DNA from: Mesorhizobium sp. SOD10 | Lineage (GTDB): Bacteria > Pseudomonadota > Alphaproteobacteria > Rhizobiales > Rhizobiaceae | Assembly: GCA_000824805.1 (NCBI GenBank) | Contig: CCNA01000001.1 | Location: forward strand, 496,001-560,000 | Length of the DNA stretch: 64,000 nucleotides | Reading direction: 5' to 3' | Part shown: piece by piece, positions 32,477-56,328 of the stretch | How the letters are laid out: each line of letters opens with the position of its first letter | How positions within the stretch are numbered: the first letter of the stretch is position 1 | Position numbers and translations under genes: made by a program | Notes under the pieces: generated by a model | What the model saw: the letters and a program-made list of their open reading frames with translations, nothing else | What the model was told of the DNA's origin: nothing | Databases searched by the model: none

Positions 32477-32489
32477 AGGTATAGAAAAG

Positions 32490-39158: not shown

Positions 39159-40109
39159 ATGCTCGCATATGCGGTGAAGCGCATCGGTCTCGGTCTCCTG
39201 ATCCTCGTCCTTGTCATGATCGCTATGTATGCGGCCGTTTTCCTGGTCCCGGGCGATCCGGCAACCGTGGCGCTCGGTCCCCGCGCCACGCCGGAACTGA
39301 AGCGGCTGCTGATCGAGCGCATGGGGCTCGACCAGCCGGTCTGGTGGCAGATCGTCGAATTCTTCCGGAACGCTCTGACCGGCAATCTCGGCTACGACGT
39401 CTGGTCGAACCGGCCCGTTTCCACTCTGGTTCTGGAAGCGTTGCCGAACACGCTTGTCCTGGGGCTGACGGCGCTCGCCGTGGCGCTCCTGATCGGCGTG
39501 CCGCTCGGCTGCCTGTCGGTGATGCGGCGCGGCACGGCCGCCGATGCCGCCATCGGCGTGCTCTCGGTCGGTGTCATCGCCGTGCCGTCCTTCGTCGTCG
39601 CCATCTACTCGCTGCTGCTCTTCGCCGTCACGCTGCGCTGGCTGCCGGCCATCGGGGCGGGCGAGGCCGGGGATTTCTTCAGCCAGGCCAGGGCGCTCGT
39701 CATGCCGGCCGCCGCGATCGCCCTCGGCTGGGTCGGCTATATCGCCCGCATGGTGCGCGCCTCGATGATGGAGGTGATGGGCGAGCCCCATATCCGTACC
39801 GCGCGCTCATTTGGTTTGCCGGAGTGGAAGATCGTCTCCAAATATGCGCTGCGCATCGCCATCATCCCGACCATCTCGCTGGTCGCGGTCGGCCTCGGCA
39901 GCATCCTATCCAGCGCCGTCTTCGTCGAGGCGGTGTTCGCCAGGCCCGGCATCGGCAAGCTGATCACCGACGCCGTCGGCACCCGCAACTATCCGGTCGT
40001 CATGGGCACGGTGCTGATCATGACCGCCATCTATGTCTCCATCACCATCGCCGCCGATCTTCTCATCGCGCGGCTCGATCCGAGGGTCCGTGATGTCTTC
40101 CGTGGCTGA
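39159..40109 (+). CDS. Dipeptide/oligopeptide-type ABC transporter permease (DppB/OppB family)
   Basis: A 316-residue inner-membrane permease with about six membrane segments. The N-terminus (LAYAVKRIGLGLLILVLVM) and FLVPGDPATVAL are typical of DppB/OppB, and the EAA loop is ARSFGLPEWKIVSKYALR. AGGGAGGAGG precedes the ATG. It lies 17 nt after the hydrolase and overlaps the next permease gene by 17 nt. Confidence 0.93.
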   Translation: MLAYAVKRIGLGLLILVLVMIAMYAAVFLVPGDPATVALGPRATPELKRLLIERMGLDQPVWWQIVEFFRNALTGNLGYDVWSNRPVSTLVLEALPNTLVLGLTALAVALLIGVPLGCLSVMRRGTAADAAIGVLSVGVIAVPSFVVAIYSLLLFAVTLRWLPAIGAGEAGDFFSQARALVMPAAAIALGWVGYIARMVRASMMEVMGEPHIRTARSFGLPEWKIVSKYALRIAIIPTISLVAVGLGSILSSAVFVEAVFARPGIGKLITDAVGTRNYPVVMGTVLIMTAIYVSITIAADLLIARLDPRVRDVFRG

Positions 40110-40980
40110 GGCCTCTCCATCCGCGCCCGATCGACAACGGCTTGTCCTGCTACACGCACTGCTTGCCGACCCCTTCACCCGCGTGGCACTGGTCCTGGTC
40201 GCCGGCTTCCTTGTCACCGCGCTCTTCGCGCCCTGGCTGGCGCCCTATTCGCCGGTCAAGATCGATGTGCTGCACAAGCTGCAGCCGCCATCGGCGGAGC
40301 ACTGGTTCGGCACCGATCATCTCGGCCGCGATCTCTTGTCGCGCGTCATCTACGGCGCGCGCACGGCACTCACCATCGCCATGGTCTCGGTGGCCATCGC
40401 CGGCGCCATCGGCCTGCTGCTCGGCCTCATCGCCGGCTATGGTCCGCGCTGGCTCGACGCCATGCTGGTGCTGACCTTCGACAGCATGAATTCGCTGCCG
40501 ATGATCATGTTCGCGCTTGCCATCATCACCGTGCTCGGCGCCGGCACCGGCACGCTCATCATCGTCATCGCCGCGACGTCCTTCCCAAGCTATGCGCGGC
40601 TCATCCGGGCCCAGACGCTGGCGCTGAAGAACAGTGACTACATCCTTGCCGAGCGCCTGCTCGACGCGAGCGCTTCGCGCATCATCTTCATCCACCTCCT
40701 GCCCAATGTCGTCGGTCCGCTGATCATCCTTTTGTCGATGGACATTCCGGTCGTCATCATGGTGGAGGCCGGCTTGAGCTTCCTCGGCCTCGGCGTGCGC
40801 CCGCCGACGCCGTCCTGGGGCTCGATCCTCTACGACGGCTACACCAGCATCAGCTCGGCACCCTTCATGGTGATCTTCGGCGGGCTACCGCTGGTGCTGG
40901 CGACGCTCGGCTTCACCTTTCTCGGCGAGGGCCTGCGCGACTATCTCGACCCGCGCCTGCAACTGCGGAGGCCGGCATGA
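40093..40980 (+). CDS. Dipeptide/oligopeptide-type ABC transporter permease (DppC/OppC family)
   Basis: A 295-residue partner permease. Family marks are HWFGTDHLGRDLLSRVIYGAR, the EAA loop and the C-terminal FTFLGEGLRDYLDPR. The start ATG at 40093 overlaps the previous gene by 17 nt; a longer start at 40033 is rejected. The stop overlaps the next ATPase start as ATGA. Confidence 0.93.
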   Translation: MSSVAEASPSAPDRQRLVLLHALLADPFTRVALVLVAGFLVTALFAPWLAPYSPVKIDVLHKLQPPSAEHWFGTDHLGRDLLSRVIYGARTALTIAMVSVAIAGAIGLLLGLIAGYGPRWLDAMLVLTFDSMNSLPMIMFALAIITVLGAGTGTLIIVIAATSFPSYARLIRAQTLALKNSDYILAERLLDASASRIIFIHLLPNVVGPLIILLSMDIPVVIMVEAGLSFLGLGVRPPTPSWGSILYDGYTSISSAPFMVIFGGLPLVLATLGFTFLGEGLRDYLDPRLQLRRPA

Positions 40981-41942
40981 GCGGCTCGCTCGCGGCCAGC
41001 GGTCTCAGCGTCCGCTACGAAACACCGCATGGCAGCGTGCAGGCTCTTCGCCATGTCGACATCGAGGCGCATCCCGGCGAGGTCATCGGCATTGTCGGTG
41101 AGAGCGGCTGCGGCAAGTCCACTTTGGTCACCGCTCTGGCAAATCTCTTGCCGGCGAACGCCTGCATCGACGGGTCGATCCGATACAACGGCGTCGACCT
41201 GACAAAGCTCGATGCGCATCGCCAGCGGCTGCTGCGCGGCGACGAGATCGCGCTGGTCGGCCAGGACCCGATGACGGCGTTCAACCCGGTGCTGACCATC
41301 GGCGACCAGCTCGTCGACTTCCAGCACCACCGTAAGGATCTCAGCCGCGCGCAGAAACGGGCCCGCATCGCCGCCATGCTCGGTCGCGTCGGCATCGCCG
41401 ATGCCGAACGGCGCATGCAGAGTTATCCGCACGAGCTTTCCGGCGGCATGCGCCAGCGCGTGGCGATCGCCGCCGCCTTGCTGACCGATCCCGGCCTGCT
41501 CATCGCCGACGAGCCGACAACCGCGCTCGACGTCACCATGGAGGCGCAGATCATCCATCTGCTGCGCGAGCTCAGGCGCGAATATAACGGCATCATCATC
41601 GTCGTCTCGCATCATCTCGGCGTCATTGCCGAGCTCTGCGACCGCGTCTATGTCATGTATGCCGGCGAGGTAGTCGAGGGCGGCGAGGTCGACGCGATCT
41701 TCCACGATCCGCGTCATCCCTATACCCAGGCGCTGCTTGCCTGCGATCCCGCCCGCTTCCATGATCGGCTGGACAGGCTGCCGACCATTCCAGGGTCGTT
41801 GCCGAGCCTGACCCAACCACCACCGGGATGCGTTTACGCGCCGCGCTGCGATCGCGCCTTCGCGCCATGCGGCTCCATCGCACCACCGCTGACGAGGCTC
41901 ACCGCATGCCATGCCGCCCGCTGCCACGCGGTGACGCCATGA
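40977..41942 (+). CDS. Peptide-type ABC transporter ATP-binding protein (DppD/OppD family)
   Basis: A 321-residue ATPase. Walker [10 protein letters not shown] (about 42-50), signature [12 protein letters not shown] and Walker [13 protein letters not shown] are intact. The C-terminal oligopeptide extension contains the [14 protein letters not shown] cysteine motif. It overlaps both neighbours by 4 nt. Confidence 0.94.
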
Positions 41943-42967
41943 GCCCGCTGCTTGCCGTCGAGGACCTCTCGGTCAGCTTCGTGCGCGGCAGCCTGCTCGA
42001 CCGGCTGATCAACCCGTTCCCGTTGCCCGGCTTCAACGTCGTCGACGGCGTCACGCTGTCGCTCATGCCGGCCGAGACGCTTGGGCTGGTCGGTGAATCC
42101 GGCTCCGGCAAGACGACGCTGGCCCGCACCATCCTCGGCCTCATCCGGGCGGCAGCCGGTCGTATCGTGTTCGAGGGGAGGGAGGTCGCGACGCCGTCCG
42201 ACTTTCGTGCCATGCGCCGGCGCTCGGCGATGATGTTCCAGGATCCGGTCGCCTCGCTCAGCCCGCGCCTGCGCGTCGGCACGCTGCTCACCGAACCGCA
42301 GGTCATCCAGGGACTGCCGATGCCGGATCGGCGCGCGGCGGCCAAGGCGCTGCTGGCGCTGGTCGGCTTGCCCGCCTCCTTCGTCGACCGCTTTCCGCAT
42401 GAATTGTCGGGCGGGCAGGCTCGTCGCGTCGGCGTTGCGCGGGCGCTTGCGATGAAGCCGCATCTGCTGCTTGCCGACGAGCCGACAGCCGGGCTCGATG
42501 TGTCGGTGCAGGGCGATGTGCTCAACCTCATCGGCGAGCTCAAGCGCGAGCTCGGCTTCGCCGCCATGATCGTCACCCACAATCTGGCGATGATCCGCCA
42601 CGTCAGCGATCGGCTCGCCATCATGTATCTGGGGCGGCTCGTCGAGACGGGACCGACGCAAGAGGTGTTCTCAGCCCCATTGCATCCCTATACCGCGACA
42701 CTGATCCGCTCCGAGCCGTTTCCCGATCCGCGCCGGCGCAGCCACAACCCTGCCGTCACCGGCGAAATTCCGAGCGTGTTCCGGCGACCTGCCGGGTGCG
42801 AGTTCCACACGCGCTGTCCCCTCGTGCAATCCCGCTGCAAGACCGAGGCGCCGGTCTATCGGCCGATGGGGGCCGGCCGCATGGTGCGCTGCCATTTCCC
42901 GCTGCAGACCGGCGGGCAAGAACGGGAAGCCGTCTTACGCGCTTCCGCAAACCAAAGGGGAAACTGA
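41939..42967 (+). CDS. Peptide-type ABC transporter ATP-binding protein (DppF/OppF family)
   Basis: A 342-residue second ATPase. Walker A GESGSGKTT, signature LSGGQARRVGVARAL, Walker B LLLADEPTAGLD, and a C-terminal CEFHTRCPLVQSRC motif. The ATG at 41939 overlaps the previous stop. It pairs with the DppD-like protein to power transport. Confidence 0.93.
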   Translation: MSPLLAVEDLSVSFVRGSLLDRLINPFPLPGFNVVDGVTLSLMPAETLGLVGESGSGKTTLARTILGLIRAAAGRIVFEGREVATPSDFRAMRRRSAMMFQDPVASLSPRLRVGTLLTEPQVIQGLPMPDRRAAAKALLALVGLPASFVDRFPHELSGGQARRVGVARALAMKPHLLLADEPTAGLDVSVQGDVLNLIGELKRELGFAAMIVTHNLAMIRHVSDRLAIMYLGRLVETGPTQEVFSAPLHPYTATLIRSEPFPDPRRRSHNPAVTGEIPSVFRRPAGCEFHTRCPLVQSRCKTEAPVYRPMGAGRMVRCHFPLQTGGQEREAVLRASANQRGN

Positions 42968-42968
42968 A

Positions 42969-44531
42969 ATGACGAAATGGACAATGGACAGACGTGCATT
43001 CCTGAAAGCCGCTGGCGTGCTGGGCGCCGGCCTGGCGATGAAGCCGGGCTTTGCCTGGGCGGCGGCCGGCGACACGCTGCGCATCCGCATGGAAGGCGAT
43101 CTGCAGACGCTTGATCCCGCGTTCATGATCGGCGGCATCGAAGACGTCATGATGCGCGGCATTTATGTGTCGCTGAACCGTCTTGGCGATCTCAGGCAAG
43201 GTTCGCCATGGTCGCTGTGGGGTGCGGAGAAGCTTGAGCTGAAGGATCCGAAAACCATCGCCTTCACCCTGATCGATGGGCTGAAATGGTCGAACGGTCT
43301 TGGTCCGGTCACCGCCGAAGACGTGAAATTCTCCTACGAGCGTATAGCCGACCCGAAGCTGTCGTCGCCCTGGGCTTATCAGTTCGAAAAGCTGGACCGT
43401 GTCGAGGTCGTCGACGCCAGATCCGGTATCATCCACCTCAAGGACCCGTACCAGCCGATCTTCGTCACCAGCCTGCCTTACTATGGCGGCCACATCATCA
43501 GCCGCGCCGGCACCGAGAAGGCCGGCGGAAAATTCACCACCGAGCCGCCGGCGACCTGCGGTCCCTATCTCTTCTCGGATTGGCAGCAGAAGCAGAAGGT
43601 GACGCTGACCGCCAATCCTGACTGGCCAGGACCGAAGCCGGATTTCGGCAAGGTCGAGATCTATGTCGTCGCCGACGATCAGGCGGCGCAATTGGCCTAC
43701 GAGGCCGATGCTTTCGACTACACAAAGATCGCCATTTCGGCGACCAAGGCCGTGAAGGCCAAACCGCCCGCCAACACCAGCCTCATCGAGGCGCAGTCGA
43801 CCCGCTATGTCTGGCTGACGATCAACATGCTGAGCCCGCGCCTCAAGGATCTGAAGGTGCGGCAAGCCGTGCAGTACGGCGTCGACGTCGGGCAGATCCT
43901 GACCGGCGTCTATGACGATCTCACCAAGCGCTCCACCGGCGTCGTCCAGCCCGGCACGAAATTCGCGCGCCCGAGCAATCTGATCGCGGCGCCCGATTAT
44001 GAAAAGTCCGCCGCCTTGCTCGCCGAGGCAGGCGTCAGCGACTTGTCATTGACGTTGACGGTGATGAACGATTCGATCCGCACGGCGGCCGCGCAGATCA
44101 TCCAGGCGAGCCTCGAGCAGGCCGGCATCAAGGTCGAGATCCAGCCTTATGACGAAGCCGCCTTCTGGGGCGTCGGCGACAAGACGCAAGGCGACGGCTA
44201 TAAGAACATCGACCTGGCGCTGATGGATTTCGCCGGCGGCGTCGATCCGTCCGAGAACCTCGTCTGGTTTCGCCCTGACCAGATCGGCGCCTACAATTGG
44301 TCCGGCTTCGACAGTCCCGAATTCGAGACCTGCTATCAGCAATTGATTGCCGAAAGCGACGAGGCCAAGCGCATCGCCTTGTCCAACCGCATGGAGGATC
44401 TGATGGAGCAGTCCGGCGGTTTCGTCTTCATCTGCCACCAGCCGCTGGTTGCGATTCATAGGACCGTGTTCGAACCCGTCATCTATCCGGACGGTCACCC
44501 CAATCCTGTGCTGTTCAAGAAGACGGCGTGA
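42969..44531 (+). CDS. Peptide-type ABC transporter substrate-binding protein, Tat-exported
   Basis: A 520-residue periplasmic binding protein (SBP_bac_5/DppA family). A twin-arginine signal (MDRRAFLKAAGVLGAGLAM) and an alanine-rich cleavage region near residue 35 lead to the mature domain. Family features are LQTLDPAFMIGG, FTLIDGLKWSNG and EDVKFSYERIADP. Tat export implies folding in the cytoplasm before export. It lies 1 nt after the second ATPase gene. Ligands of this family include peptides, glycine-betaine-like amines and opines; nothing in the sequence fixes the ligand. Confidence 0.92.
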   Translation: MTKWTMDRRAFLKAAGVLGAGLAMKPGFAWAAAGDTLRIRMEGDLQTLDPAFMIGGIEDVMMRGIYVSLNRLGDLRQGSPWSLWGAEKLELKDPKTIAFTLIDGLKWSNGLGPVTAEDVKFSYERIADPKLSSPWAYQFEKLDRVEVVDARSGIIHLKDPYQPIFVTSLPYYGGHIISRAGTEKAGGKFTTEPPATCGPYLFSDWQQKQKVTLTANPDWPGPKPDFGKVEIYVVADDQAAQLAYEADAFDYTKIAISATKAVKAKPPANTSLIEAQSTRYVWLTINMLSPRLKDLKVRQAVQYGVDVGQILTGVYDDLTKRSTGVVQPGTKFARPSNLIAAPDYEKSAALLAEAGVSDLSLTLTVMNDSIRTAAAQIIQASLEQAGIKVEIQPYDEAAFWGVGDKTQGDGYKNIDLALMDFAGGVDPSENLVWFRPDQIGAYNWSGFDSPEFETCYQQLIAESDEAKRIALSNRMEDLMEQSGGFVFICHQPLVAIHRTVFEPVIYPDGHPNPVLFKKTA

Positions 44532-44574: not shown

Positions 44575-45252
44575 ATGACGCAAGCCCAACCGGAAGATGC
44601 AAAAAGGAAGCGCGGCGCGAAGAAGGCGCCACGCTTCAGCCGCGAGCAGGCGGATGTGCGCCGCTCCATGCTGATCGAGGCGGCGACGCGGTGCCTGTCT
44701 GTCGGCGGCATCGGCGCCTTCACCATAGATCGCATCTGCAAGGAGGCCGGCGTCTCGCGCGGCCTCATCAACCACCACTTCGAAAGCCTCGACGGGCTGC
44801 TGGTCGAAGTCTACAAGTCCTCGCTCTATGCCAGCGTCAACAACCAGATCGACGAAGCCAAGCGCCGCCGCGCCGAGGCGTCCGGCTGGCCCCCGGAGGC
44901 CGCGCTGGCTGCCCTGGTGCGGTCCAACTTCGCGCCGGAATATTTCAGCCGCGAGAACCTGCTGATCTGGCTGTCCTTGTGGGGCGAGATCGCCGTCAAC
45001 GCTCGGCTCAAGGCGGCGCATCGCGAGCTCTACGACGCTTACCGCGCCGAACTTGCCGAGGACATCGCGGCGGTTGCTGTTGAGCGTGGAAGGCAGGTCG
45101 ACGCTTCCGCGCTGGCGCGCAATTTCATCGCGCTGGTCGACGGGCTCTGGCTCGAATGGTGCCTCGACGAAAGCGTGGTGACGCCGCAGGCAGCGGAGGC
45201 GGCAGGGTTCGAGATGCTCGAAGCGCAGGTCGGACCGCTGCGGGACAGTTGA
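44575..45252 (+). CDS. BetI-like TetR family transcriptional regulator
   Basis: A 225-residue TetR protein. After a basic leader, the helix-turn-helix (about 32-80) has RSMLIEAATRCLSVGGI and AGVSRGLINHHFESLDGLL, very like BetI. The C-terminal domain shares BetI features: RSNFAPEYFSRENLLIWLSLW and NFIALVDGLWLEWCLD. BetI proteins sense choline or betaine aldehyde. It is 43 nt downstream of the transporter and likely the last gene of the operon that starts with the hydrolase. The two TTGAACG/CGTTCAA palindromes (37089 and 52262) are plausible targets. Confidence 0.82.
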   Translation: MTQAQPEDAKRKRGAKKAPRFSREQADVRRSMLIEAATRCLSVGGIGAFTIDRICKEAGVSRGLINHHFESLDGLLVEVYKSSLYASVNNQIDEAKRRRAEASGWPPEAALAALVRSNFAPEYFSRENLLIWLSLWGEIAVNARLKAAHRELYDAYRAELAEDIAAVAVERGRQVDASALARNFIALVDGLWLEWCLDESVVTPQAAEAAGFEMLEAQVGPLRDS

Positions 45253-45324: not shown

Positions 45325-46170
45325 CTATCCGGTCATCTGCTTGAGCGCCTTGAGCAGGCGAACATGGGTGTGGGAATGATGGTGCCTGACATGAACGGCC
45401 GAATAGATGGGATGTGAAATCTTCGGCGCATCGGCGACGAACTCCGCCACGCCCTCCTGCCGCAATCTGGTCGCCACCGCCTCGGTGACGAAAGCGGTCC
45501 CGCCCCGGCTCCGCAGGAGATAGGCGACGGCGCCGCCATTTCCGGTCGAGACGGGGGTGTTCTCAAGCTCCGGCAGCATCTGCCTGTGGGCCCGGTTGAA
45601 GAAGGCCGAGTAGTTGGCCCGGATATAGTCGGCCGGCGTGACTGCGCCGAAGGTAAGGCCGCGCGTCGATACCATGACGAAATTCTCCTCGGCGATCTGC
45701 TCGTAATGCATGTCCGGCAGGTGCTGCGGCGAATAGAGCACCGCCAGATCGAGGCTGCCGGTTGTGAGATCGAGGATCATCTGGTTGGAGTAGTCGATCT
45801 CGACGTAGATCGCCAATTTGGGCAGCGTCGCCCGCACCCATTCCAGCCATCCTTCCAGCACGCGCTCATAAAGCTCGAACTGGATGCCGATGCGGATCAG
45901 CCGGTCGAACTGGCCGACCGCCTGGATTTCGCGGCGGGCGTCGAGCCAGCGCAGCCTGACCGCGCGCGCATGCTCCTCGAACCTCAGGCCGGCGACGGTC
46001 GGCTCCGTGCCGCTCTTGCCGCGGATGAAGAGCTGCTTGTCCAGCAGTGTCTCGAGCGTGCGGATGCGGCTCGAAACGGTGGACTGGGTGATGCCAAGGC
46101 GCTCCGCCGTCCTGTTGAAGTTGCGGCTTTCGATCAGGTCCAGGAATGTGTCCAAGAGTTCAATCTGCAT
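45325..46170 (-). CDS. LysR family transcriptional regulator
   Basis: A 281-residue LysR regulator. The N-terminal winged helix (LLDTFLDLIESRNFNRTAERLGITQSTVS split over 4-35, then RIRTLE) is typical. The C-terminal substrate-binding domain follows (about 90-280) and is slightly short. It is divergent from the amidohydrolase gene, with a 19-nt LysR-box palindrome between them (46235-46253), and converges on the BetI-like gene with 72 nt between stops. Confidence 0.9.
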   Translation of the reverse strand: MQIELLDTFLDLIESRNFNRTAERLGITQSTVSSRIRTLETLLDKQLFIRGKSGTEPTVAGLRFEEHARAVRLRWLDARREIQAVGQFDRLIRIGIQFELYERVLEGWLEWVRATLPKLAIYVEIDYSNQMILDLTTGSLDLAVLYSPQHLPDMHYEQIAEENFVMVSTRGLTFGAVTPADYIRANYSAFFNRAHRQMLPELENTPVSTGNGGAVAYLLRSRGGTAFVTEAVATRLRQEGVAEFVADAPKISHPIYSAVHVRHHHSHTHVRLLKALKQMTG

Positions 46171-46325: not shown

Positions 46326-47429
46326 ATGGCAGGCAAGACATCCATGTTCATCGTCGACACCGACGTTCACAATTACTGGTCCAGCGCCGAGGTGTTGCTG
46401 CCCTATCTCGAACCCTACTGGCGCGATTTCCTGATGCGCGGCGAGAAGCCCGGGCCGAGGGGAAGCTTTCCGCATGGTCACCGTCCGTGGCTGCACCCGG
46501 AAGGGTTCTCGAGGCACGACATCCGCCCGGAGACCGAGGAGGACAATTACCTGATCATGAAGGAGAGGCACCTCGATCTCTACGACATCGATGTTGCGAT
46601 CCTCACCGCCGACGAGCCCTTGGAAGCCTCGACTCTTGCCAACTACCACTATGCCAACGCACTGGTGAAAGCCTACAATGACTACATGATCGACTGGTGG
46701 CTGCCGAAGGATAGCCGCTTCAAGGGATCGATCATCATTTCGCCGACCGATCCCCATGGCGCCGCGGCCGAGATCCGGCGTCTCGGCCGCCACAAGGACA
46801 TTGTCCAGGTCCTGGCGAGCCACGGCTCGCAACGCCCCTATGGCGATCCCTTCTACAATCCGATCCACGAAGCCTGCGCCGAGGTCGGGCTGCCCTTCGC
46901 CATCCATTTCGGCGGGCAAGGCGGCGTCAACCACAACGCGGTCGCCAGCGGCCCGACCGCCTATTATTGGGAAACGCACGCCTTGCTCAGCCAGCCGGCG
47001 ATGACCCATGTGGTCAGCATGATCTCCAACGGCGTGTTCGAAAAATATCCCGACCTCTATTTCGTCGTGATCGAGTGCGGCGTGTCGTGGGTGCCTTCGC
47101 TGATGTGGCGGCTTGATGCCAACTTCAAGGCGCTGCGAAAGGAGACGCCGTGGCTGAAGATGCTGCCGTCGGAATATTGCCGCCGCAACATCCGCTTCAG
47201 CACCCAGCCGTTGGAGCAACCCCAGAACGTCAGGCATCTGTGGGAAACGCTGGAGCACATGGACGGCCAGAACACGCTGCTTTTCGCCTCCGACTACCCG
47301 CACTGGGACTTTGACGCGCCGACCAATCTGCACATCCCATCGGGCTGGCGCGACAAGATCATGGGGCTGAATGCGTTGGAGGTCTACAAGCGCATCGAGG
47401 CTCCAGCGGCAGCCGTGAGGGTCGCCTGA
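46326..47429 (+). CDS. Amidohydrolase family (amidohydrolase_2) metalloenzyme
   Basis: A 367-residue TIM-barrel amidohydrolase. VDTDVHNYW near the start takes the place of the usual HxH or DxH metal motif, IHFGGQGG supplies a middle histidine, and FASDYPHWD near the C-terminus carries the conserved aspartate. Family members hydrolyse or decarboxylate varied substrates. The start may be 46326 (MAGKTS) or 46344 (MFIVDTD); neither has a strong ribosome site. It is followed by the Rieske gene with a TGATG overlap and is divergent from lysR. Confidence 0.82.
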   Translation: MAGKTSMFIVDTDVHNYWSSAEVLLPYLEPYWRDFLMRGEKPGPRGSFPHGHRPWLHPEGFSRHDIRPETEEDNYLIMKERHLDLYDIDVAILTADEPLEASTLANYHYANALVKAYNDYMIDWWLPKDSRFKGSIIISPTDPHGAAAEIRRLGRHKDIVQVLASHGSQRPYGDPFYNPIHEACAEVGLPFAIHFGGQGGVNHNAVASGPTAYYWETHALLSQPAMTHVVSMISNGVFEKYPDLYFVVIECGVSWVPSLMWRLDANFKALRKETPWLKMLPSEYCRRNIRFSTQPLEQPQNVRHLWETLEHMDGQNTLLFASDYPHWDFDAPTNLHIPSGWRDKIMGLNALEVYKRIEAPAAAVRVA

Positions 47430-47806
47430 TGAGCGCCGCAACAACCGCGGCGGCGCGGACCTTTGCCTGCAAGGCCGCCGACGTCGCTGTAGGCAAACCC
47501 AGGATCGTCACCATCGGCCGCATCCGCGTCGGCATATTCCAGCTCGAGGATGGCTATGCCGCGCTGCTCAACATCTGCCCCCATCGGGCGGGCAATCTAT
47601 GCGAGGGGCCGGTATCGGGCACCAATCGGCAAACCGACAAGACGGAATTCATCTATGAGCGCGCCGGAGAGCTCATTCGCTGCGCCTGGCACGGATGGGA
47701 GTTCGACATCCGGTCAGGCAAATGCCTTGTCGACGAGAAGCTCAGGGCGCGCACCTTTCCCGTTCATGTCGACGGCGACGACCTCTATCTCGAAATACGC
47801 CGCTGA
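47429..47806 (+). CDS. Rieske-type [2Fe-2S] ferredoxin
   Basis: A 125-residue soluble Rieske protein. Ligands are CPH (Cys50, His52) and CAWH (Cys85, His88). The spacing between the two boxes is long, with an insert of about 15 residues (residues 60-80). There is no fused catalytic domain, so it is an electron carrier for some oxygenase or oxidase rather than a full ring-hydroxylating oxygenase. It overlaps the amidohydrolase stop and lies 33 nt before the HD-domain gene. Confidence 0.85.
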   Translation: MSAATTAAARTFACKAADVAVGKPRIVTIGRIRVGIFQLEDGYAALLNICPHRAGNLCEGPVSGTNRQTDKTEFIYERAGELIRCAWHGWEFDIRSGKCLVDEKLRARTFPVHVDGDDLYLEIRR

Positions 47807-47839
47807 CCGCAATGTGCCGTAAACTTTGGAGTTTCGACA

Positions 47840-48463
47840 ATGGAAACCGTGAAGTTCACCCAGATGAAGGATGGCGACCGCGAGGACTATGCCTTCCTGA
47901 CCGAACATGAGACCGAATACGCCGCCGGCACGGCCGACCGGCTGCTGGCGGCGATGGTCGAACTCGACAAATCGCTATCGGGCTACAAGGTGACGCGACT
48001 CGGCCATTCGCTGCAGGCCGCCACGCGCGCCTGGAATGCCGGCGCCGATATCGACTGGGTGGTGTCGGCGCTCCTGCATGACATCGGCGACATCTACGCG
48101 CCCTACAATCACGACGAATACGCGGCCGCCATCTTGCGTCCATTCGTACGCGAGCAATGCGCCTGGGTGGTGGAAAAGCATGGCGATTTCCAGCTGATCT
48201 ACTATGGCGCGCATGTCGGTGCGAATCCGCACAAGCGGGATGCGTTCAGGGACAACGCCTATTTCGACGACTGCGCCGAGTTCTGCGAGAAGTGGGACCA
48301 GTCGAGCTTCGATCCGGATTATCCGACACGGCCACTGAACTTCTTCGCGCCGCTGGTGCGGGAAGTGTTCGCCCGCAAGAGCCACGATCCCGCTGTCGTC
48401 AGGCCCGGAACGCGCATTGCGATGTCGGATGACGCGGCCGCCGCCGAGCGGTCGGGCATGTAG
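47840..48463 (+). CDS. HD-domain protein, possible diiron oxygenase or phosphohydrolase
   Basis: A 207-residue HD-domain protein. GHSLQAATRAW (His56), LLHDIGD (His80-Asp81), YNHDEYAA (His91), VEKHGDF (His114) and a later Asp (153-160) form an H...HD...H...H...D pattern. This is the ligand set of mixed-valent diiron oxygenases such as PhnZ and inositol oxygenase, but ordinary HD phosphohydrolases share much of it. The adjacent Rieske ferredoxin makes an oxygenase role attractive; that is inference. It converges on mttB with 69 nt between stops. Confidence 0.7.
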   Translation: METVKFTQMKDGDREDYAFLTEHETEYAAGTADRLLAAMVELDKSLSGYKVTRLGHSLQAATRAWNAGADIDWVVSALLHDIGDIYAPYNHDEYAAAILRPFVREQCAWVVEKHGDFQLIYYGAHVGANPHKRDAFRDNAYFDDCAEFCEKWDQSSFDPDYPTRPLNFFAPLVREVFARKSHDPAVVRPGTRIAMSDDAAAAERSGM

Positions 48464-48532: not shown

Positions 48533-50071
48533 TCAGTTCAAGGGCGATCCGCCTTCGCGCTTGCGCCGCTCCATATAGTCGCGCAGCGCCTCGTCGATGC
48601 CGGGATCGATCGGCGGCTGCTCATATTCAGCGACCATGCGTTTCCAGATCACGTTGGCCCGTTCACGCGCGGTGATCTGGCCGCGTTCCATCCAGGTGTC
48701 ATAGTTGTCCCAATTGGACACCAGCGGCGAATAGAAGGCGCGCTCATAGCGCTGCATGGTATGTGCGGCGCCGAAGAAATGCCCGGCCGGCCCGACCTCG
48801 CGCACAGCGTCCAGCGCCAGCGTGTCGATGTCGACGACGGGCGGATCGAAATAGGCCGACATCATCTGCAGCATCTCGACATCGATCACCAGTTTCTCGA
48901 ACGAAGCGGTCAGGCCGCCGCCGAGCCAGCCGGCCGCGTGCAGCACCAGATTGGCGCCGCCCATCAGGCAGCCCCACAAGGACATCGCGCTCTCGTAAGC
49001 CGCTTGCGCGTCGACCGCATTGGCGGCGGTGACGTTGCTGGAGCGGAACGGCACGCCGATCAGCCGGCAGAGCTGCCCGGTGATCTGCGCGGCCTGCGTA
49101 TATTCCGGCGTGCCGAAGGCCGGCGCTCCGGTCTTCATGTCGACATTGGAGGTGAAGCCCCCATACATCACCGGCACGCCGGGACGGACGATCTGCGTCA
49201 GCACGATGCCAGCCAGCGCCTCGGCATGCTGCTGCGACAGCGCGCCGGCAAGCGTCACCGGGCTCATAGCTCCGGCCAGCGTGAACGGCGTGATGACGTT
49301 AACCTGGCCGTGCTCGGCCAATGCGATCAGCCCTTCGGCCATCGGCTCGTCGAGCTGCAGCGGTGAATTGGTGTTGATGATGCCGGTGAACACCGGCATC
49401 TCGCGCGCCAGATTTTCGCGCGTCGTGCCGAGCGAGATCGCCACCATCTCCAGCGCGTCGACGGCGCGGCCGTGACCAAGCGCCTGCGGCTGCCAGTTCT
49501 TGTCGAGCAAAGTGATCTCGGCATAGTAGAGGTCGAGGTGCCGGGTGTTCTGATGCAGGTCGAGCGGTTCGAACGGCCCGCCGCCTTCCTGGTGCAGCAC
49601 GTTGAAGGACTGGATGAGCTTCAGATAGTCGCACATCTCGGCATAGGAGCCGGGGCGACGGCCGCGGTCATTGTCCATGACATAGGCCGGCCCGCCGACC
49701 GACGACAGGATGCAGTGCCGCCCGCCGACCTTGACGTTCTTCTGAGGGTTGCGGGCGCGCAGCTCGAAGGATGAGGGTGCCATGGCGACGCGTTCCATCA
49801 CCATGGCGCGGTCGAAGCGCACGCGCATCTCGCCTTCGTCGACGGTGCAGCCGGCCGCTCGATAGAGCTGGCGCGCCCGCGGCTGCAGCACGCGCATGCC
49901 GATCTCCTCGAGGATGGTGAGGCCCATTTCGTGGATAGCCTGCACCTGGTCGGCCGACAGGACCTCGATCGGCGCGTAGGGCCGCGTCAGCTGCTTCCAC
50001 GACCGTTGCGCGATGCCGGCCACCTCGCGCTGGGGGCGACCGGGCCTGCGACGTGCGGCGATACGCTCCAT
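48533..50071 (-). CDS. Trimethylamine methyltransferase (MttB) family protein, non-pyrrolysine
   Basis: A 512-residue MttB-superfamily protein. Features are HEMGLTILEEIGMRVLQ, GGGPFEPLDLHQNTRHLDL and PVMYGGFTSNVDMKTGAPAFGTPE. There is no in-frame amber codon, so it is a non-Pyl member; characterised ones demethylate quaternary amines (glycine betaine, proline betaine, carnitine) and pass the methyl to a cobalamin protein. No corrinoid protein gene is in the window. AAGGAGG lies 12 nt upstream of the ATG at 50071. It is 69 nt downstream of the flavoprotein gene on the same strand. Confidence 0.88.
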   Translation of the reverse strand: MERIAARRRPGRPQREVAGIAQRSWKQLTRPYAPIEVLSADQVQAIHEMGLTILEEIGMRVLQPRARQLYRAAGCTVDEGEMRVRFDRAMVMERVAMAPSSFELRARNPQKNVKVGGRHCILSSVGGPAYVMDNDRGRRPGSYAEMCDYLKLIQSFNVLHQEGGGPFEPLDLHQNTRHLDLYYAEITLLDKNWQPQALGHGRAVDALEMVAISLGTTRENLAREMPVFTGIINTNSPLQLDEPMAEGLIALAEHGQVNVITPFTLAGAMSPVTLAGALSQQHAEALAGIVLTQIVRPGVPVMYGGFTSNVDMKTGAPAFGTPEYTQAAQITGQLCRLIGVPFRSSNVTAANAVDAQAAYESAMSLWGCLMGGANLVLHAAGWLGGGLTASFEKLVIDVEMLQMMSAYFDPPVVDIDTLALDAVREVGPAGHFFGAAHTMQRYERAFYSPLVSNWDNYDTWMERGQITARERANVIWKRMVAEYEQPPIDPGIDEALRDYMERRKREGGSPLN

Positions 50072-50140: not shown

Positions 50141-52243
50141 CTATTCGGCTGCCGTTCGCATCTCGAAATCCGCTGCCGCATCGACGATCGGCGTGTCGCG
50201 GCGGTAAGGCCGCCAGCGAAGCTTCTCGCCGATTTCGCGTGCCAGCTTGTGGCCGCTATGCACCGCATGGGCGATGGCGCCGGGCGCCAGCGTGTCGCCG
50301 ACGCGATCGACGCTCCGGATGCCCGCCGCCGCGAGCACGTCCGCTCTTTCGCTCAGCGCTTCGAACAACTCGTTTCGCGGCAATCGCAGGCCGACGATCA
50401 GCACCGAGCGGCAGGCGATGCGGTTCTCTTCGCCAGTGAACAGATGCGCCAGTGTTGCCGTCTCGCCATCGAAGGATTTCAGCAGATGCAGCGTCGTCAC
50501 CGGCACGTTGCGGCGCGCCAGCGCCCGGTGCACCAGCGGCAGCTCGTTGGTCATGATGGTCCATCCCGACGCTTGGCCGGACGGTGTCGCATAGTTGACC
50601 GGAATGCCTTGCGCGGCCAGATGCTCGGTGAGGACGCCGCCCATGTAGTAATTGTCGAAATCGAAGACCAGCGTCGGCCCTTCAGGAAGCTTGCCGGCGG
50701 CGATGTCGTCGGGTGTGAGCACGTCCGCATGGTCGAGACGGCCGACGGGGATCTCCATCGAGGAATAGAGCATGTTCGTCCAGCGCGCGCCGGTCGCCAG
50801 CACCACGCGCTCCGGCGCCAGGTCGATGATCTCGTCGGCGCCGAGCGCGCTTTCGGGATAGAGCGAGACATTGCTCATCTCGCCGATGCGGCCGAGGCGG
50901 TATTCGACGACACGATTCCAGGCCGACAGCCCTGGCAATGTCTTCTCGAAGGTTAGCCGTCCGCCGAAGCCGCGGCTGGCGTCGGCAAGCATCACCTCGT
51001 GGCCGCGGCGGCCGAGTGTCATGGCGCATTCGAGCCCGGCCGGTCCGCCGCCGACAATGAGGATGCGTTCGGGCCTGTCGGCGCGCCCGGCGCGCTCGGG
51101 ATGCCAGCCGCGCCGCCACTCCTCGCCGGCGGTCGGATTCTGGGTGCAGCGCACCGGCACGCCGTCGTGCCAGCTCGAAATGCAGATGTTGCAGCCGATG
51201 CATTCGCGGATCTCGGCCTCGCGGCCCTCGCGGATCTTGGCCGGCAGGAAGGGATCGGCGATCGACGGCCGCGCGCCGCCGATGAGGTCGAGCACGCCGC
51301 GCCGGATCTGCGACACCATCGTGTCCGGCGAGGTGAAGCGCCCGACGCCGACCACCGGCTTCTTCGTCAGCGACTTGACGAAATCGATCACCGGCTCGTG
51401 GCTGCCTTCGCCGGTGAAGCGCGACGCCGAGCAATCGGTCGGGCTGGAGTCCATCTTGACGTCGAACAGGTCGGGCAGGTCGGCCAAAAGTTCGATCAGC
51501 TCATGCGCTTCCGAGGGCTGGTTGCGCCCGGGCCGGCCGCGCAGCTCCTCGAGGCTGACACGAAGCGCGACACCGCAATCCTTGCCCACGGCGTCCTTCG
51601 TCACCTCGATCATCTCGCGCACGAAGCGGACACGGTTCCCGATCGAGCCGCCATATTCGTCGACGCGATGATTGTATTCCGGCAGCAGGAACTCGTAGCC
51701 GAGATAGCCCATCCCGGCATAGACATAGACGATATCGAAGCCGGCCGTGCGCGCCTTGCGTGCCGCTTCGGCCTGGCATCGGAGCACCTCGCGGATGTCC
51801 GCCTTGTCCATCGTCTTCGGCCTCAGATTGCCCATGAAGCCGACATGCGTGGCCATCCACGGAATGCCGGATGGCGACAACGGCGGCAGGCGGCTTGTGC
51901 GGTTCATCACCGAAGCGCCGCCATGCCACAACTCCACGCCGGCAAGCGATCCATGGCGGTGCACGGCTTCCGTCATCAGCGCGTGAGCGCGGATGTCGTT
52001 GTCGTCCCACAGCGTCGCGAAAGGCAGCGGCGCATCGTCCGAAGTCGGATCGATCGAGCAAGCCCCCGTGCAGATCACGCCCCATCCGCCTTCGGCCTTG
52101 GCTTCGCGAAACGCCGCGCGAACGCGCGGCAGCGCGTTTGTCATCCCGCTAGCATGCGGCACCTGATAGAAGCGGTTCGGCGCGGTGACAGGCCCTATTC
52201 TTACCGGCTCGAACAGGATTTCGTAACGAGGGTTGCACGGCAT
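50141..52243 (-). CDS. Trimethylamine-dehydrogenase-like FMN/FAD iron-sulfur oxidoreductase
   Basis: A 700-residue protein with an old-yellow-enzyme FMN barrel (1-350), a 4Fe-4S motif (ECIGCNICISSWHDGVPVRC) and a C-terminal FAD/NAD domain (ILIVGGGPAGLECAMTLGRRG). It closely follows trimethylamine dehydrogenase (NRFYQVPH, CARPSIADPFLP-like GARPSIADPFLP, TAGEEWRRGWHPE). Two active-site changes stand out. The cysteine that covalently binds FMN is Ala31 (VPHASGM), and the catalytic histidine after VYG-type Tyr reads YVYAGMGYL, with Met. Related rhizobial enzymes demethylate proline betaine derivatives or dimethylglycine. The substrate is therefore probably an N-methyl amino acid, not trimethylamine. 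A BetI-like operator lies 19 nt upstream of the start. Confidence 0.88.
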   Translation of the reverse strand: MPCNPRYEILFEPVRIGPVTAPNRFYQVPHASGMTNALPRVRAAFREAKAEGGWGVICTGACSIDPTSDDAPLPFATLWDDNDIRAHALMTEAVHRHGSLAGVELWHGGASVMNRTSRLPPLSPSGIPWMATHVGFMGNLRPKTMDKADIREVLRCQAEAARKARTAGFDIVYVYAGMGYLGYEFLLPEYNHRVDEYGGSIGNRVRFVREMIEVTKDAVGKDCGVALRVSLEELRGRPGRNQPSEAHELIELLADLPDLFDVKMDSSPTDCSASRFTGEGSHEPVIDFVKSLTKKPVVGVGRFTSPDTMVSQIRRGVLDLIGGARPSIADPFLPAKIREGREAEIRECIGCNICISSWHDGVPVRCTQNPTAGEEWRRGWHPERAGRADRPERILIVGGGPAGLECAMTLGRRGHEVMLADASRGFGGRLTFEKTLPGLSAWNRVVEYRLGRIGEMSNVSLYPESALGADEIIDLAPERVVLATGARWTNMLYSSMEIPVGRLDHADVLTPDDIAAGKLPEGPTLVFDFDNYYMGGVLTEHLAAQGIPVNYATPSGQASGWTIMTNELPLVHRALARRNVPVTTLHLLKSFDGETATLAHLFTGEENRIACRSVLIVGLRLPRNELFEALSERADVLAAAGIRSVDRVGDTLAPGAIAHAVHSGHKLAREIGEKLRWRPYRRDTPIVDAAADFEMRTAAE

Positions 52244-53509: not shown

Positions 53510-54712
53510 TTACTCCACTTGCGCGACCGCGGCGTTGATGCGCGCGACCGCTTCGGTCAGCACCTCTTCGCTGGTCGCGGTCGAGATGCGGAAAAAGGGC
53601 GACAGTCCATAGGCGACGCCGGGCACGGACGCCACCCGGCCTTCGCTCAGAAGATAGTTGGCCACGGCCGCATCGTCCTCCAGAACGACGCCCTTGGGCG
53701 TCTTGCGGCCGATCAGGCTGGCGCAGCCGATATAGGCGTAGAAGGCGCCCTCCGGCGGCGACAGCGTCAGGCCGTTGATCTTCCTGATGCCGGCGACGAC
53801 CAGGTCGCGACGCCTCTCGAAGGCCTGGCGGAAGCGCGCCACCTCGTCCTGCGGCCCGTTAAGCGCGGCGACGGTGGCGGCCTGCGCGATCGAGCACACC
53901 GAGGTGCAGGACTGGCTCTGGATCGTCGACATCGCCTTGACGAGCGGTGCGGGTCCTGCCGCGTAGCCGACGCGCCAGCCGGTCATCGCATAGGATTTCG
54001 AGACGCCGTTGACGATCAGCGTGCGGTGCTTGAGTTCGGAACATGCCTTGCCGAAGGAAACGAACTCGCGCCCGTCGAAGAGGATGTGCTCGTAGATCTC
54101 GTCGGAGAGGATAAGCACATGCGGGTGCTTGGCCAGCACCGCGCCCAGCGCCTTGAGATCGGATTCTGAATACACCGCGCCGGATGGATTGCCCGGCATG
54201 TTGAGGAAGAGCCACTTCGTCCTCGGCGTGATGGCCTGTTCAAGCAACGCGGGCGTCAGCCGAAAGCCCGTGGTTTCTGGACATTCGACGACGACAGGCG
54301 TGCCGCCGAGCAGCTTCACCATCTCGGGATAGGAGACGAAATAGGGCGCCGGCAGGATCGCCTCGTCGCCGGTCTCCAGCGTGGCCATCAGCGCGTTGAA
54401 GATGATCTGCTTGGCGCCGTTGGCCACCACGATGTCGTCGGCCGTGTAGTCCAGCCCGTTCTCGCGGCGGAATTTTCCCGCTATCGCTTCACGCACTTCA
54501 GGCGTGCCGGCAGCGGCCGTGTAGAGCGTCTGGCCGGCCTTCGCCGCGAAATGGGCGGCGTCGATGATGTGCAGCGGCGTCGGAAAATCGGGCTCGCCCA
54601 GCCCGAGATCGATCACATCCACGCCCTTGGCGCGCAGCGCCTTGGCGGCCTGCGAAGCGGCCATCGATGCGGAGGGTTTCACCACCGACAGGCGCGAGGC
54701 AACATAGCTCAT
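53510..54712 (-). CDS. Class I PLP-dependent aminotransferase (aspartate-aminotransferase-like)
   Basis: A 400-residue fold-type I aminotransferase. The PLP lysine sits in NGVSKSYAMTGWRVGY (about 237), with NMPGNPSGAVY and SDEIYEHILFDG also conserved. ATG at 54712 overlaps the hyuB stop (TGATG). It could transfer an amino group from the amino acid released by the hydantoinase-like pair to a keto acid, or act on a keto acid made by the upstream thiamine enzyme. Substrate specificity cannot be read from sequence. Confidence 0.9.
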   Translation of the reverse strand: MSYVASRLSVVKPSASMAASQAAKALRAKGVDVIDLGLGEPDFPTPLHIIDAAHFAAKAGQTLYTAAAGTPEVREAIAGKFRRENGLDYTADDIVVANGAKQIIFNALMATLETGDEAILPAPYFVSYPEMVKLLGGTPVVVECPETTGFRLTPALLEQAITPRTKWLFLNMPGNPSGAVYSESDLKALGAVLAKHPHVLILSDEIYEHILFDGREFVSFGKACSELKHRTLIVNGVSKSYAMTGWRVGYAAGPAPLVKAMSTIQSQSCTSVCSIAQAATVAALNGPQDEVARFRQAFERRRDLVVAGIRKINGLTLSPPEGAFYAYIGCASLIGRKTPKGVVLEDDAAVANYLLSEGRVASVPGVAYGLSPFFRISTATSEEVLTEAVARINAAVAQVE

Positions 54713-56328
54713 CAATCGTTCTCCGAAATATAGCCCTTGGATCGGTCGTTGGCCCGCGCGGCGGCGCTGCGCTTGGCCGGATCGCCATAGCCGCCGCCGC
54801 CCGGCAGCTCCAATATTAGCCGCCGGCCGGCGGGCACATGCTGCCAGCCCTTGGGGCGCATCTTCGTGCCGTCATCCAACTTGACCACGCCGGCGACGCC
54901 AGGCTTGCCGCCATTGCGTCCGCGTGGCGGATGGTTGACGCGGTCGAACATGGCCGAGAAGTCGAATTCGTGGCCGTCGGTCGCCGCGATCTCGATGATC
55001 TGCCCGAGGCCGCCGCGGAATTCGCCGTCGCCGCCGGAATTGGGCCGCAGCTCCTTGCGCCAGATGACGATCGGGCCGGTGTGCTCCGTCGCCTCGATCG
55101 GCATCGTGTGCACGCCCGATGGGAAGGCCGTCGCCGACAAGCCGTCGAGCTCGGGGCGCGCACCCATGCCGCCGGAGTTGAACATCAGCACTTCGGCGCG
55201 ACGGCCGGAGCCACCGGCGACGGGGCGTGCCGAAATGTGGATGTTCCACAGCGCGCCGGCGCCTTCGGCAAGGATCCTGCCGGGCAGCGCCTTGGCGAAC
55301 GCGCCCAGCACCAGATCGGGAACCATGTGGCCGAAGATGTGCCTGAGCGCCACCGGCGCCGGCCGCACGGCATTGAGGATGTTGACGGGCGAGGACACGG
55401 TGAAGAAGGCGAGCGAGGCGGCATTGTTCGGAATGTCGGGCGCCACCATGCATTTCAGCGCGTAGCAGGCGTAGGCCTTGCTGTAGATGATCGGGCAGTT
55501 GATGCCCCAGCGGCTCATCGGATCGGTGCCGGTGAAGTCGACCTCGACATGGTCGTCGCGCACCGAAACCGTAGCCGCGAGCTTAACGGGCTCGTCGTAG
55601 CCGTCGGTCACGAGCTCGTTCGACCAGCTTCCCTTGGGCAGCGCCCCGATGCGTTCGAGCATGGCGTCGCGGGTGCGCGAGAAGATGAAGTCGCCGAGAC
55701 CGTCGAGCGAGGTGAGGCCGATCTCCTTCATCATGTCGACGAGACGCCGGTGGCCGACCTCGTTGCAGGCGGCGAGCGAATAGAAATCGCCGACCACCTG
55801 ATTGGGCTCGCGGACATTGGCGCGCAGGATCCTGACCAGGTCGAGATTGACCTTGCCCTTCTCCGCGAACTTCATGATCGGGATCTGGATGCCTTCCTCA
55901 TAGACCGACTTGCCGTCGGAGCCGAAGCCGCGGCCGCCGACATCGACGACATGCGCCGTGCAGGCGAAGAAGGCGACGAGCTCGCCGTTGAGGAAGGATG
56001 GCGATACCATTGTGATGTCGTGCAGATGGCCGGTGCCCAGCCAAGGATCGTTGGTGACATAGGTGTCGCCCTCGAACATCTCCTCGCGCGGGATCGCGTT
56101 CATAAAATGCAGCACGGCCTCGGCCATGGTGTTGACGTGACCGGGCGTGCCGGTGACGGCCTGCGCCAGCATCTGGCCGCGCGGATTGAACACGCCCGCC
56201 GACAGGTCGCCGGACTCGCGCACCGAGGTCGAGAAGGCGGTGCGCAGCAAGGTCAGCGCCTGCTCCTCGACCACCGAGATCAACCGATTCCACATGACCT
56301 GCATGCGGATTTCGCCAATATCGCTCAT
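54712..56328 (-). CDS. hyuB: Hydantoinase B / 5-oxoprolinase family subunit
   Basis: A 538-residue HyuB (hydantoinase_B/oxoprolinase) subunit. Typical stretches are VMWNRLISVVEEQALTLLRTAFS, VTGTPGHVNTMAEAVLHF, DTYVTNDPWLGTGHLHDI and the C-terminal ELPGGGGYGDPAKR. With HyuA it forms an ATP-dependent amidase for cyclic imides or amides (N-methylhydantoin, 5-oxoproline) or, in related proteins, a ketone carboxylase. The start ATG at 56328 overlaps the hyuA stop. Confidence 0.92.
   Translation of the reverse strand: MSDIGEIRMQVMWNRLISVVEEQALTLLRTAFSTSVRESGDLSAGVFNPRGQMLAQAVTGTPGHVNTMAEAVLHFMNAIPREEMFEGDTYVTNDPWLGTGHLHDITMVSPSFLNGELVAFFACTAHVVDVGGRGFGSDGKSVYEEGIQIPIMKFAEKGKVNLDLVRILRANVREPNQVVGDFYSLAACNEVGHRRLVDMMKEIGLTSLDGLGDFIFSRTRDAMLERIGALPKGSWSNELVTDGYDEPVKLAATVSVRDDHVEVDFTGTDPMSRWGINCPIIYSKAYACYALKCMVAPDIPNNAASLAFFTVSSPVNILNAVRPAPVALRHIFGHMVPDLVLGAFAKALPGRILAEGAGALWNIHISARPVAGGSGRRAEVLMFNSGGMGARPELDGLSATAFPSGVHTMPIEATEHTGPIVIWRKELRPNSGGDGEFRGGLGQIIEIAATDGHEFDFSAMFDRVNHPPRGRNGGKPGVAGVVKLDDGTKMRPKGWQHVPAGRRLILELPGGGGYGDPAKRSAAARANDRSKGYISEND

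Follow-up and report, generated by a model that had tools for sequence, protein, structure and literature searches.

The gene trio

Positions 496,001 to 560,000 of contig CCNA01000001.1 of Mesorhizobium sp. SOD10 (assembly GCA_000824805.1), a stretch of 64,000 nucleotides referred to below as the window, harbour at 46326-48463 three co-directional open reading frames (ORFs) encoding a protein of the amidohydrolase fold, a free Rieske ferredoxin and an HD protein. An earlier reading of the letters alone (the sequence-only reading) had singled out this trio as a possible oxygenase system, and its account of the three ORFs was confirmed. The analysis described here leans, slightly better than evenly, towards a two-step O2-dependent catabolic cassette, probably acting on a methylated amine. 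The predicted hydroxylase would be the amidohydrolase-like protein, assigned to the amidohydrolase-related dinuclear oxygenases (AROs), working with the Rieske protein, and the HD protein would cleave the hydroxylated product. The trio and the regulator gene next to it are as follows.

46326-47429, forward strand: ARO, the predicted terminal hydroxylase; 367 amino acids, PF04909 Amidohydro_2 (E 2.8e-42)
47429-47806, forward strand: free Rieske [2Fe-2S] ferredoxin, the presumed electron donor of the ARO; 125 amino acids, PF00355 Rieske (E 7.7e-13)
47840-48463, forward strand: HD protein, a predicted diiron oxygenase of an uncharacterised family; 207 amino acids, PF01966 HD (26.0 bits, cut-off 22)
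45325-46170, reverse strand: LysR regulator, divergent from the trio (PF00126/PF03466)

The ARO and Rieske ORFs overlap by 1 base and a gap of 33 bases separates the Rieske from the HD ORF. The layout of the trio is beyond chance, given its recurrence in other genomes. The divergent lysR gene is kept with the trio across rhizobia, its product being 91-92% identical to that of the window in the Mesorhizobium loci L051-L053, 75% in the Rhizobium megaplasmid locus L220 and 98% in L252, which belongs to another genome of the window's genus.

The amidohydrolase-like protein

AROs are defined as amidohydrolase-related dinuclear oxygenases and were discovered through a neighbouring Rieske gene (Liu et al. 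2024, PMC10811679). The best phmmer matches of the window protein are the structures 8SM7 (E 8.1e-80), 8SM6, 8SM9 and 8SM8, followed by AibH2. AibH2 is a Mn/Fe hydroxylase for which a Rieske protein and a flavoenzyme have been assigned as electron chain (PMC10401708, PMC7782822), and SfbO was found to be active with Fe/Fe and better with Mn/Fe (PMC10811679). Alignment with AibH2, whose ligands are D25, H27, H211, E265, D337 and H340 (PMC7782822), places the six dinuclear ligands of the window protein at D13, H15, H194, E250, D323 and H326, while its second-sphere residue D328 is the counterpart of AibH2 D342. The metal motif that had been noted as unusual for an amidohydrolase proved to be the ligand set of the dinuclear oxygenases AibH2 and SfbO. 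The protein thus combines PF04909 homology, AROs as its nearest structures, the six-ligand set and an adjoining Rieske gene, and with its Rieske partner it adds to a class that has already been described. Judged by these residues, the 'amidohydrolase' is itself likely a dinuclear monooxygenase, which the sequence-only reading had overlooked. A plain hydrolase or decarboxylase was considered and rejected, since 5-carboxyvanillate decarboxylase matched at E 7.3e-20, far behind 8SM7, and the dinuclear set is complete. At least 590 related ARO loci were found, the best 80 of which were used for neighbour counts; the closest named relatives among the matches listed are Mesorhizobium loci with 95-97% identity to the window ARO.

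Electron supply

The Rieske protein carries the canonical CxH...CxxH motif of Rieske ferredoxins (C50-P-H52 ... C85-A-W-H88). It had been proposed as a possible electron donor to an HD diiron oxygenase. In such a wiring the HD enzyme would depend on a reductase and the amidohydrolase would act as a hydrolase; the adjacency and common direction of all three genes agree with it. Its distribution follows the ARO, however. Of the best 80 related loci, 74 have a Rieske match no more than 3.5 kb from the ARO and 5 have an HD match, and the probed HD loci gave Rieske matches solely where the ARO also matched. Because the Rieske gene accompanies the ARO with or without the HD gene, the ferredoxin probably serves the ARO and not the HD protein, and supply to the latter was rejected. 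Two further points speak against the proposed wiring: the ligands and nearest structures of the ARO are of the monooxygenase type, and the known HD oxygenases PhnZ, TmpB and MIOX need no external reductant (PMC8177086). It is regarded as very improbable. The Rieske gene was present in all eight ARO-HD loci examined (the window, L051, L052, L053, L066, L068, L220 and L252), so that a neighbourhood check for homologous cassettes lacking it turned up none. A reductase of the kind that stands beside other AROs was found near L051, L053 and L220. Genome G000 also carries a second ARO (72%), at G000:C20 (L265), accompanied by a reductase, a LysR regulator, a Rieske protein and an OpuAC-type binding protein; this locus gave no HD match.

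The HD protein

The H/HD/H/H/D set that had been suggested for the HD protein is fully present: H56, H80, D81, H91, H114 and D153 are invariant across 91 collected family members, aligned after fragments outside 150-330 amino acids had been dropped. The family is common in Alphaproteobacteria: of 385 genomes sampled, 109 contain a relative at E 1e-10. On a Pseudomonas syringae plasmid (L221, 6001-6766) an HD relative matches in two separate pieces and there is no full annotated gene.

A structure model of the window HD protein was built on a 6-sequence alignment and, because of this small alignment and its low scores (pLDDT 60.3, pTM 0.66), serves as a rough guide. Foldseek comparison of the model with the PDB returned PhnZ or TmpB at all of ranks 1-10, the next match having an E value of 0.8. 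VIA-align, here a re-examination of Foldseek's own matches, gave Z scores of 14.4 for PhnZ, 14.1 for TmpB and 9.0 and 8.3 for MIOX (ranks 1-7), while the remaining HD entries reached at most 6.3 (YqeK 4.1). These three are the HD proteins known as oxygenases in a 2020 review, in which most known HD proteins are phosphohydrolases (PMC8177086). On this low-confidence model, the window HD protein, which has the H...HD...H...H...D ligands, is nearer by fold to the HD oxygenases than to phosphohydrolases, and a firm clustering with the latter was not seen in the fold comparisons, a joint sequence tree not having been built. Of the proposed oxygenase system, the oxygenase character still looks right, with the ARO ligands and the HD fold in its support, and the wiring of the Rieske protein to the HD protein falls away.

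Comparison with the curated models gave the window HD protein 32.9 bits against TIGR03276 (cut-off 214.6) and 28.0 bits against the TmpB model NF049941 (cut-off 300). Eight relatives that were scanned likewise remained far under both cut-offs, and membership of either group was rejected. The YxxE substrate loop reads L..Y in the window; among the 91 members a Y occurs at the first site in 8 and an E at the second in 3. PhnZ residues H62, K108 and R158, which we take to be phosphonate contacts, are each kept in 16 of 17 PhnZ-type sequences (25 loci were compared, of which 6 gave no sequence; a further 2, L193 and L201, did not enter the counts). At the corresponding positions the HD family has D in 91/91, Q in 91/91 and E in 53/91 members (D84, Q118 and E in the window). 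The loss of positive charge at these positions argues against a phosphonate substrate, which looks unlikely from the active-site residues. By inference, the HD protein would work like PhnZ and TmpB but outside that phosphonate subfamily.

The same two steps might nevertheless take place on a phosphonate such as 2-trimethylaminoethylphosphonate, the trio then being an analogue of TmpAB that releases phosphate. It would suit this explanation that TauD partners of the HD family score best against TmpA, one of them above the cut-off, and that a gene presumed from its ORF to be PstS-like follows the HD gene in L045. 2-Aminoethylphosphonate (AEP) moreover perturbs the electron paramagnetic resonance (EPR) signal of the ARO SfbO (PMC10811679). 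Against these observations stand the replaced contact positions (with roles as assumed above), the lost YxxE loop and the scores of the window HD protein far below both curated cut-offs, and a phosphonate is considered distinctly unlikely.

Recurrence of the ARO-HD linkage

ARO, Rieske and HD genes follow each other in one direction in the window, in L051-L053 and in L252, as well as on the Rhizobium megaplasmid (L220) and in Saccharopolyspora rosea (L068). Two further Rhizobium plasmids have ARO and HD genes at the same spacing, these two genes having been compared. A careful HD tree of 68 rows, built without those of 28 loci, shows rhizobial and actinobacterial ARO-linked members apart. A topology holding the 7 ARO-linked HD proteins together was rejected by the approximately unbiased (AU) test (p-AU 0.00092); the group was set by gene context and a quick HD tree had been seen before the test. 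In the ARO tree, comprising 49 of the 80 related loci, 7 others and the window, the starred branches force at least 2 changes of HD linkage. ARO-Rieske has been linked to this HD family at least twice.

The HD proteins of the rhizobial trios have as nearest kin a second HD protein encoded by the same genome (SH-aLRT 88, quick tree). The gene order around this second copy is BKACE-HD-carnitine dehydrogenase, without exception among the 7 loci inspected within the window's genus (L031, L226-L230 and L251). Two genomes of the same genus gave no HD match. Order in L220 is reductase-LysR-ARO-Rieske-HD-TetR-BetA-ChoX-BetB-like, and in the plasmid locus L217 it is TauD-HD-ChoX-BetA-aldehyde dehydrogenase. 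These are similar cassettes with the hydroxylase exchanged, ARO plus Rieske in the one and TauD in the other.

Neighbours of the HD family

The surroundings of the HD family were surveyed in 97 loci, sampled by class and phylum and fetched with wide flanks; outside this set stand L251, L252 and L265, those loci that were reached via the ARO or lie on plasmids, and L224-L247, whose flanks measured 1.5 kb. Genes were called with a home-made ORF/codon scorer that missed the HD ORF in 16 loci, so the adjacency counts rest on tblastn probes, which miss distant hydroxylases. A hydroxylase lies directly upstream of the HD gene, on the same strand and within 150 bp, in 12 of the 97 loci (9 TauD, 3 PhyH). 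The same probes gave 1 TauD and 3 PhyH matches within 600 bp that differed in position or strand, while the other 910,974 bases of flank yielded 3 PhyH matches and none for TauD. The share of loci with such a partner was 8/27 at 53% identity or more to the window HD protein, 3/21 at 47-53% and 1/49 below. Among the 24 loci L224-L247, PhyH was found directly upstream in L232, L235, L236 and L238, and TauD in L237 (the same place as L263).

Four TauD partners that were scanned scored 334-355 bits against TmpA (cut-off 400) and 250-269 bits against gamma-butyrobetaine dioxygenase, and the TauD partner in L258 exceeds the TmpA cut-off with 422.8 bits. A relative on a Phaeobacter plasmid (69%) has a fatty-acid-hydroxylase-type gene next downstream. 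TmpA-like Fe/2-oxoglutarate (Fe/2OG) enzymes, PhyH and a fatty-acid-hydroxylase-like protein all occur as neighbouring hydroxylases of the HD family, besides ARO plus Rieske. The idea that every HD relative has a hydroxylase partner was rejected, as 85 of the 97 loci have none directly upstream and the neighbours, judged by ORFs and Pfam matches, are diverse. One such setting is found in L035 (1114-6652), where the HD relative overlaps AlkZ-like and urate-oxidase-type genes, followed by a deacetylase-type gene and allantoicase.

Genomic context and candidate substrates

Around the trio the window contains the following genes.

39159-44531, forward strand: Opp/Dpp-type ATP-binding cassette (ABC) importer with an SBP_bac_5 binding protein (PF00496)
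44575-45252, forward strand: TetR regulator with a BetI-type C-terminal domain (PF13977, E 1.3e-20)
48533-50071, reverse strand: MttB-family methyltransferase, convergent with the trio (PF06253, E 6.3e-195)
50141-52243, reverse strand: Old Yellow Enzyme (OYE)-type flavoprotein (PF00724, E 1.2e-71)
31223-35635, forward strand: sarcosine oxidase genes soxB, soxD and soxA, a methylated-amine context (TIGR01373, TIGR01372, TIGR01374)

The importer presumably comprises two permeases and two ATPases besides its binding protein, as read from the ORFs. The binding protein is kept at 92% in L252, and related ABC genes stand beside the ARO-Rieske loci L055, L056, L070 and L219, which have no HD gene. 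A BetI-type TetR regulator also follows the trio in L220. The MttB-family protein scores under the TIGR02369 cut-off (281.5 versus 525 bits); its gene is kept in L252 and had no match in the fetched stretches of L051-L053 and L220. The sarcosine oxidase genes score 705 bits for TIGR01373 (cut-off 529.45), 1267 for TIGR01372 (cut-off 1164) and 101.8 for TIGR01374, under its cut-off of 116.5.

A methylated, probably quaternary, amine of the choline, betaine or carnitine type is the most likely substrate, rather than a phosphonate, because of the choline genes in L220 and L217, the carnitine-type genes near HD relatives, and the sarcosine oxidase and BetI-type regulator of the window. The carnitine dehydrogenase of L031 scores 596.7 bits (cut-off 592). 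L258 has the order TauD-HD-choline-type binding protein beside a carnitine-type operon, with 413.7 bits for the dehydrogenase (cut-off 414) and 257 for the binding protein (cut-off 379). An N-methyl compound, which had been suggested beside phosphonates as a substrate to try, fits this neighbourhood.

Alternatively, the compound on which the HD protein acts might be of amide type, for instance a ureide derived from purines, instead of a quaternary amine. The ureide cluster of L035 could be read in this way, as could L068, whose trio has an NCS2-type permease and a malate synthase nearby. However, the window itself and the surroundings of several of the closest relatives contain genes for choline, carnitine or sarcosine, and this alternative is given hardly any weight, if anything less than the Rieske-to-HD wiring. 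Carnitine, choline, quaternary phosphonates, quaternary sulfonates and ureides were each considered as the specific substrate; none is established.

Some further observations concern related loci and the rest of the window. Five ARO-Rieske loci lacking an HD gene (L054, L057, L218, L222 and L223) have in their flanks a gene of the YeiH-type sulfate/sulfite exporter family, and three of them (L057, L218 and L222) have a betaine-aldehyde-dehydrogenase-like gene next after the Rieske gene. These loci may serve to hydroxylate a quaternary sulfonate, trimethyltaurine for example, whose product would then fall apart into betaine aldehyde and sulfite. Weak YeiH matches occur in L061 (no HD, 28%) and in the HD locus L047 (26%). 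At 54712-60088 of the window, genes for hydantoinase B and A adjoin a thiamine diphosphate (TPP)-dependent enzyme; together with the sarcosine oxidase (31-36 kb) they could hint at use of N-methylhydantoin or creatinine. In the first half of the window, VgrG-like, IcmF and ClpV-like genes at 3438-5762, 11938-15480 and 27806-30637 represent a type VI secretion cluster, the ClpV-like identity being presumed from the AAA domains.

Proposed pathway

In the first step, for which the evidence is strong, the ARO with a Fe/Fe or Mn/Fe site would hydroxylate an unactivated C-H bond of a small imported molecule, electrons passing from a reductase encoded elsewhere to the Rieske ferredoxin and on to the ARO. 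In the second step, for which it is moderate, the HD protein in a mixed-valent Fe(II)/Fe(III) state would bind the hydroxylated product and, using a second O2 and no external reductant, split a C-C or C-X bond in it. This would be the logic of PhnY/PhnZ and TmpA/TmpB, where hydroxylation comes first and HD cleavage without external reductant follows (PMC8177086), with ARO plus Rieske replacing the Fe/2OG hydroxylase. Hydroxylation by ARO-Rieske followed by cleavage by the HD protein appears to be the best reading, as the order of parts is the same and HD relatives have TmpA-like partners. The gene order, ligands, homology, recurrence and change of partner are observed; the metals, both reactions including any activity of the HD protein, the substrate and the order of steps are proposed on that basis.

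Several observations weigh against this two-step cassette. Reductase probes over window positions 30001-64000 gave no match beside the trio, and the hydrolase YqeK carries the same ligand set, so that the ligands alone do not prove an oxygenase (PMC8177086). The HD model is of low confidence in both scores and in its six sequences. In L066, from an Actinomycetota metagenome-assembled genome (MAG), ARO and Rieske genes are adjacent and the HD gene is divergent with one gene between; from its ORF we take this gene to be enoyl-CoA-hydratase-like. The 85 HD loci without TauD or PhyH directly upstream belong here too, as does a 32-row clade of the quick HD tree in which none occurs at that place. 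Some of the loci counted come from related genomes, so the counts do not represent independent cases. Genome G684 (L250, 6046-9408) keeps the order LysR-HD-Opp-type binding protein while having no ARO match at E 1e-20. An HD relative lies in the ureide cluster of L035, with the same gene sizes and order in L036, and HD relatives in L039 and L048 stand beside what is presumably a purF-like gene, as read from the ORFs. The carnitine dehydrogenase of L141 scores 343.8 bits, under the cut-off of 414.

Part of this evidence would suit an alternative in which the ARO-Rieske pair is a two-component monooxygenase of the ordinary kind and the operon happens to include, as HD protein, a phosphohydrolase that depends on metal or else a housekeeping enzyme. 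The prevalence of phosphohydrolases among known HD proteins (PMC8177086), the 85/97 loci, the HD gene without ARO in G684 and the purF-like and ureide settings are all in its favour. However, the fold is nearest to the three HD oxygenases, with clearly lower Z scores for other HD entries, hydroxylase matches are concentrated directly upstream of the HD gene (12 versus 7 elsewhere), and there are two separate ARO linkages. This alternative is therefore judged rather unlikely, although it deserves more weight than a phosphonate substrate.

A wider proposal can be made tentatively, with less confidence than the two-step cassette itself and somewhat short of an even chance. The HD proteins would form an uncharacterised family of diiron oxygenases that cleave hydroxylated quaternary ammonium compounds and not phosphonates; part of the family would have changed its neighbouring hydroxylase repeatedly, and the window would hold two unrelated dinuclear oxygenases in series. 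If true, this would be a fourth group of HD oxygenases, outside phosphonate and inositol chemistry, and O2 activation would extend further through the HD superfamily, most of whose members carry a phosphohydrolase annotation. AROs were recognised as metalloenzymes not long ago, and for nearly all of them no substrate is known; a partner of the HD oxygenase type would limit the chemistry to be expected of this ARO branch and yields a testable pathway. Rhizobia and other Alphaproteobacteria may turn over methylated amines in this way, as the nearby choline, carnitine and sarcosine genes suggest.

Comparison with known systems

The sequence-only reading knew of no described pathway with this trio, and the titles and abstract openings returned by searches of open-access literature likewise contained none, nor any mention of an ARO with an HD partner or of this HD family. 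Closest in its first half is the 2-aminoisobutyrate monooxygenase of Rhodococcus wratislaviensis, AibH1H2-AibG-AibF, which shares the Rieske-fed PF04909 dinuclear hydroxylase, the same six ligands and a LysR regulator in the cluster. Unlike the window, it has two amidohydrolase-fold subunits and a reductase gene inside the operon, and the part of the Aib cluster table considered here lists no HD protein (PMC7782822). SfbO and three other AROs (8SM6-8SM9) resemble the window protein as single ARO genes adjoining a small Rieske protein and are its nearest solved structures. Unlike the window, SfbO-type AROs have no HD partner named in the parts of their description considered, and where SfbO has its sulfate-contact arginines R232 and R235 (PMC10811679), the window ARO has H218 and L221, as read from the alignment.

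For the second half, MIOX is alike as an HD diiron oxygenase without YxxE (PMC8177086), with a Z score of 9.0 to the window HD model, and one 69% relative of the window protein is annotated 'inositol oxygenase family protein'. It differs in that members of the present family stand partly beside hydroxylase or carnitine genes; an inositol pathway was not searched for. TmpA/TmpB and PhnY/PhnZ share with the proposed cassette a hydroxylase followed by an HD diiron oxygenase, the HD fold, and the fact that some HD relatives follow TmpA-like hydroxylases. The window HD protein differs from TmpB and PhnZ in lacking YxxE and the phosphonate-contact residues and in remaining under the TIGR03276 and NF049941 cut-offs, and the first step would here be carried out by ARO and Rieske.

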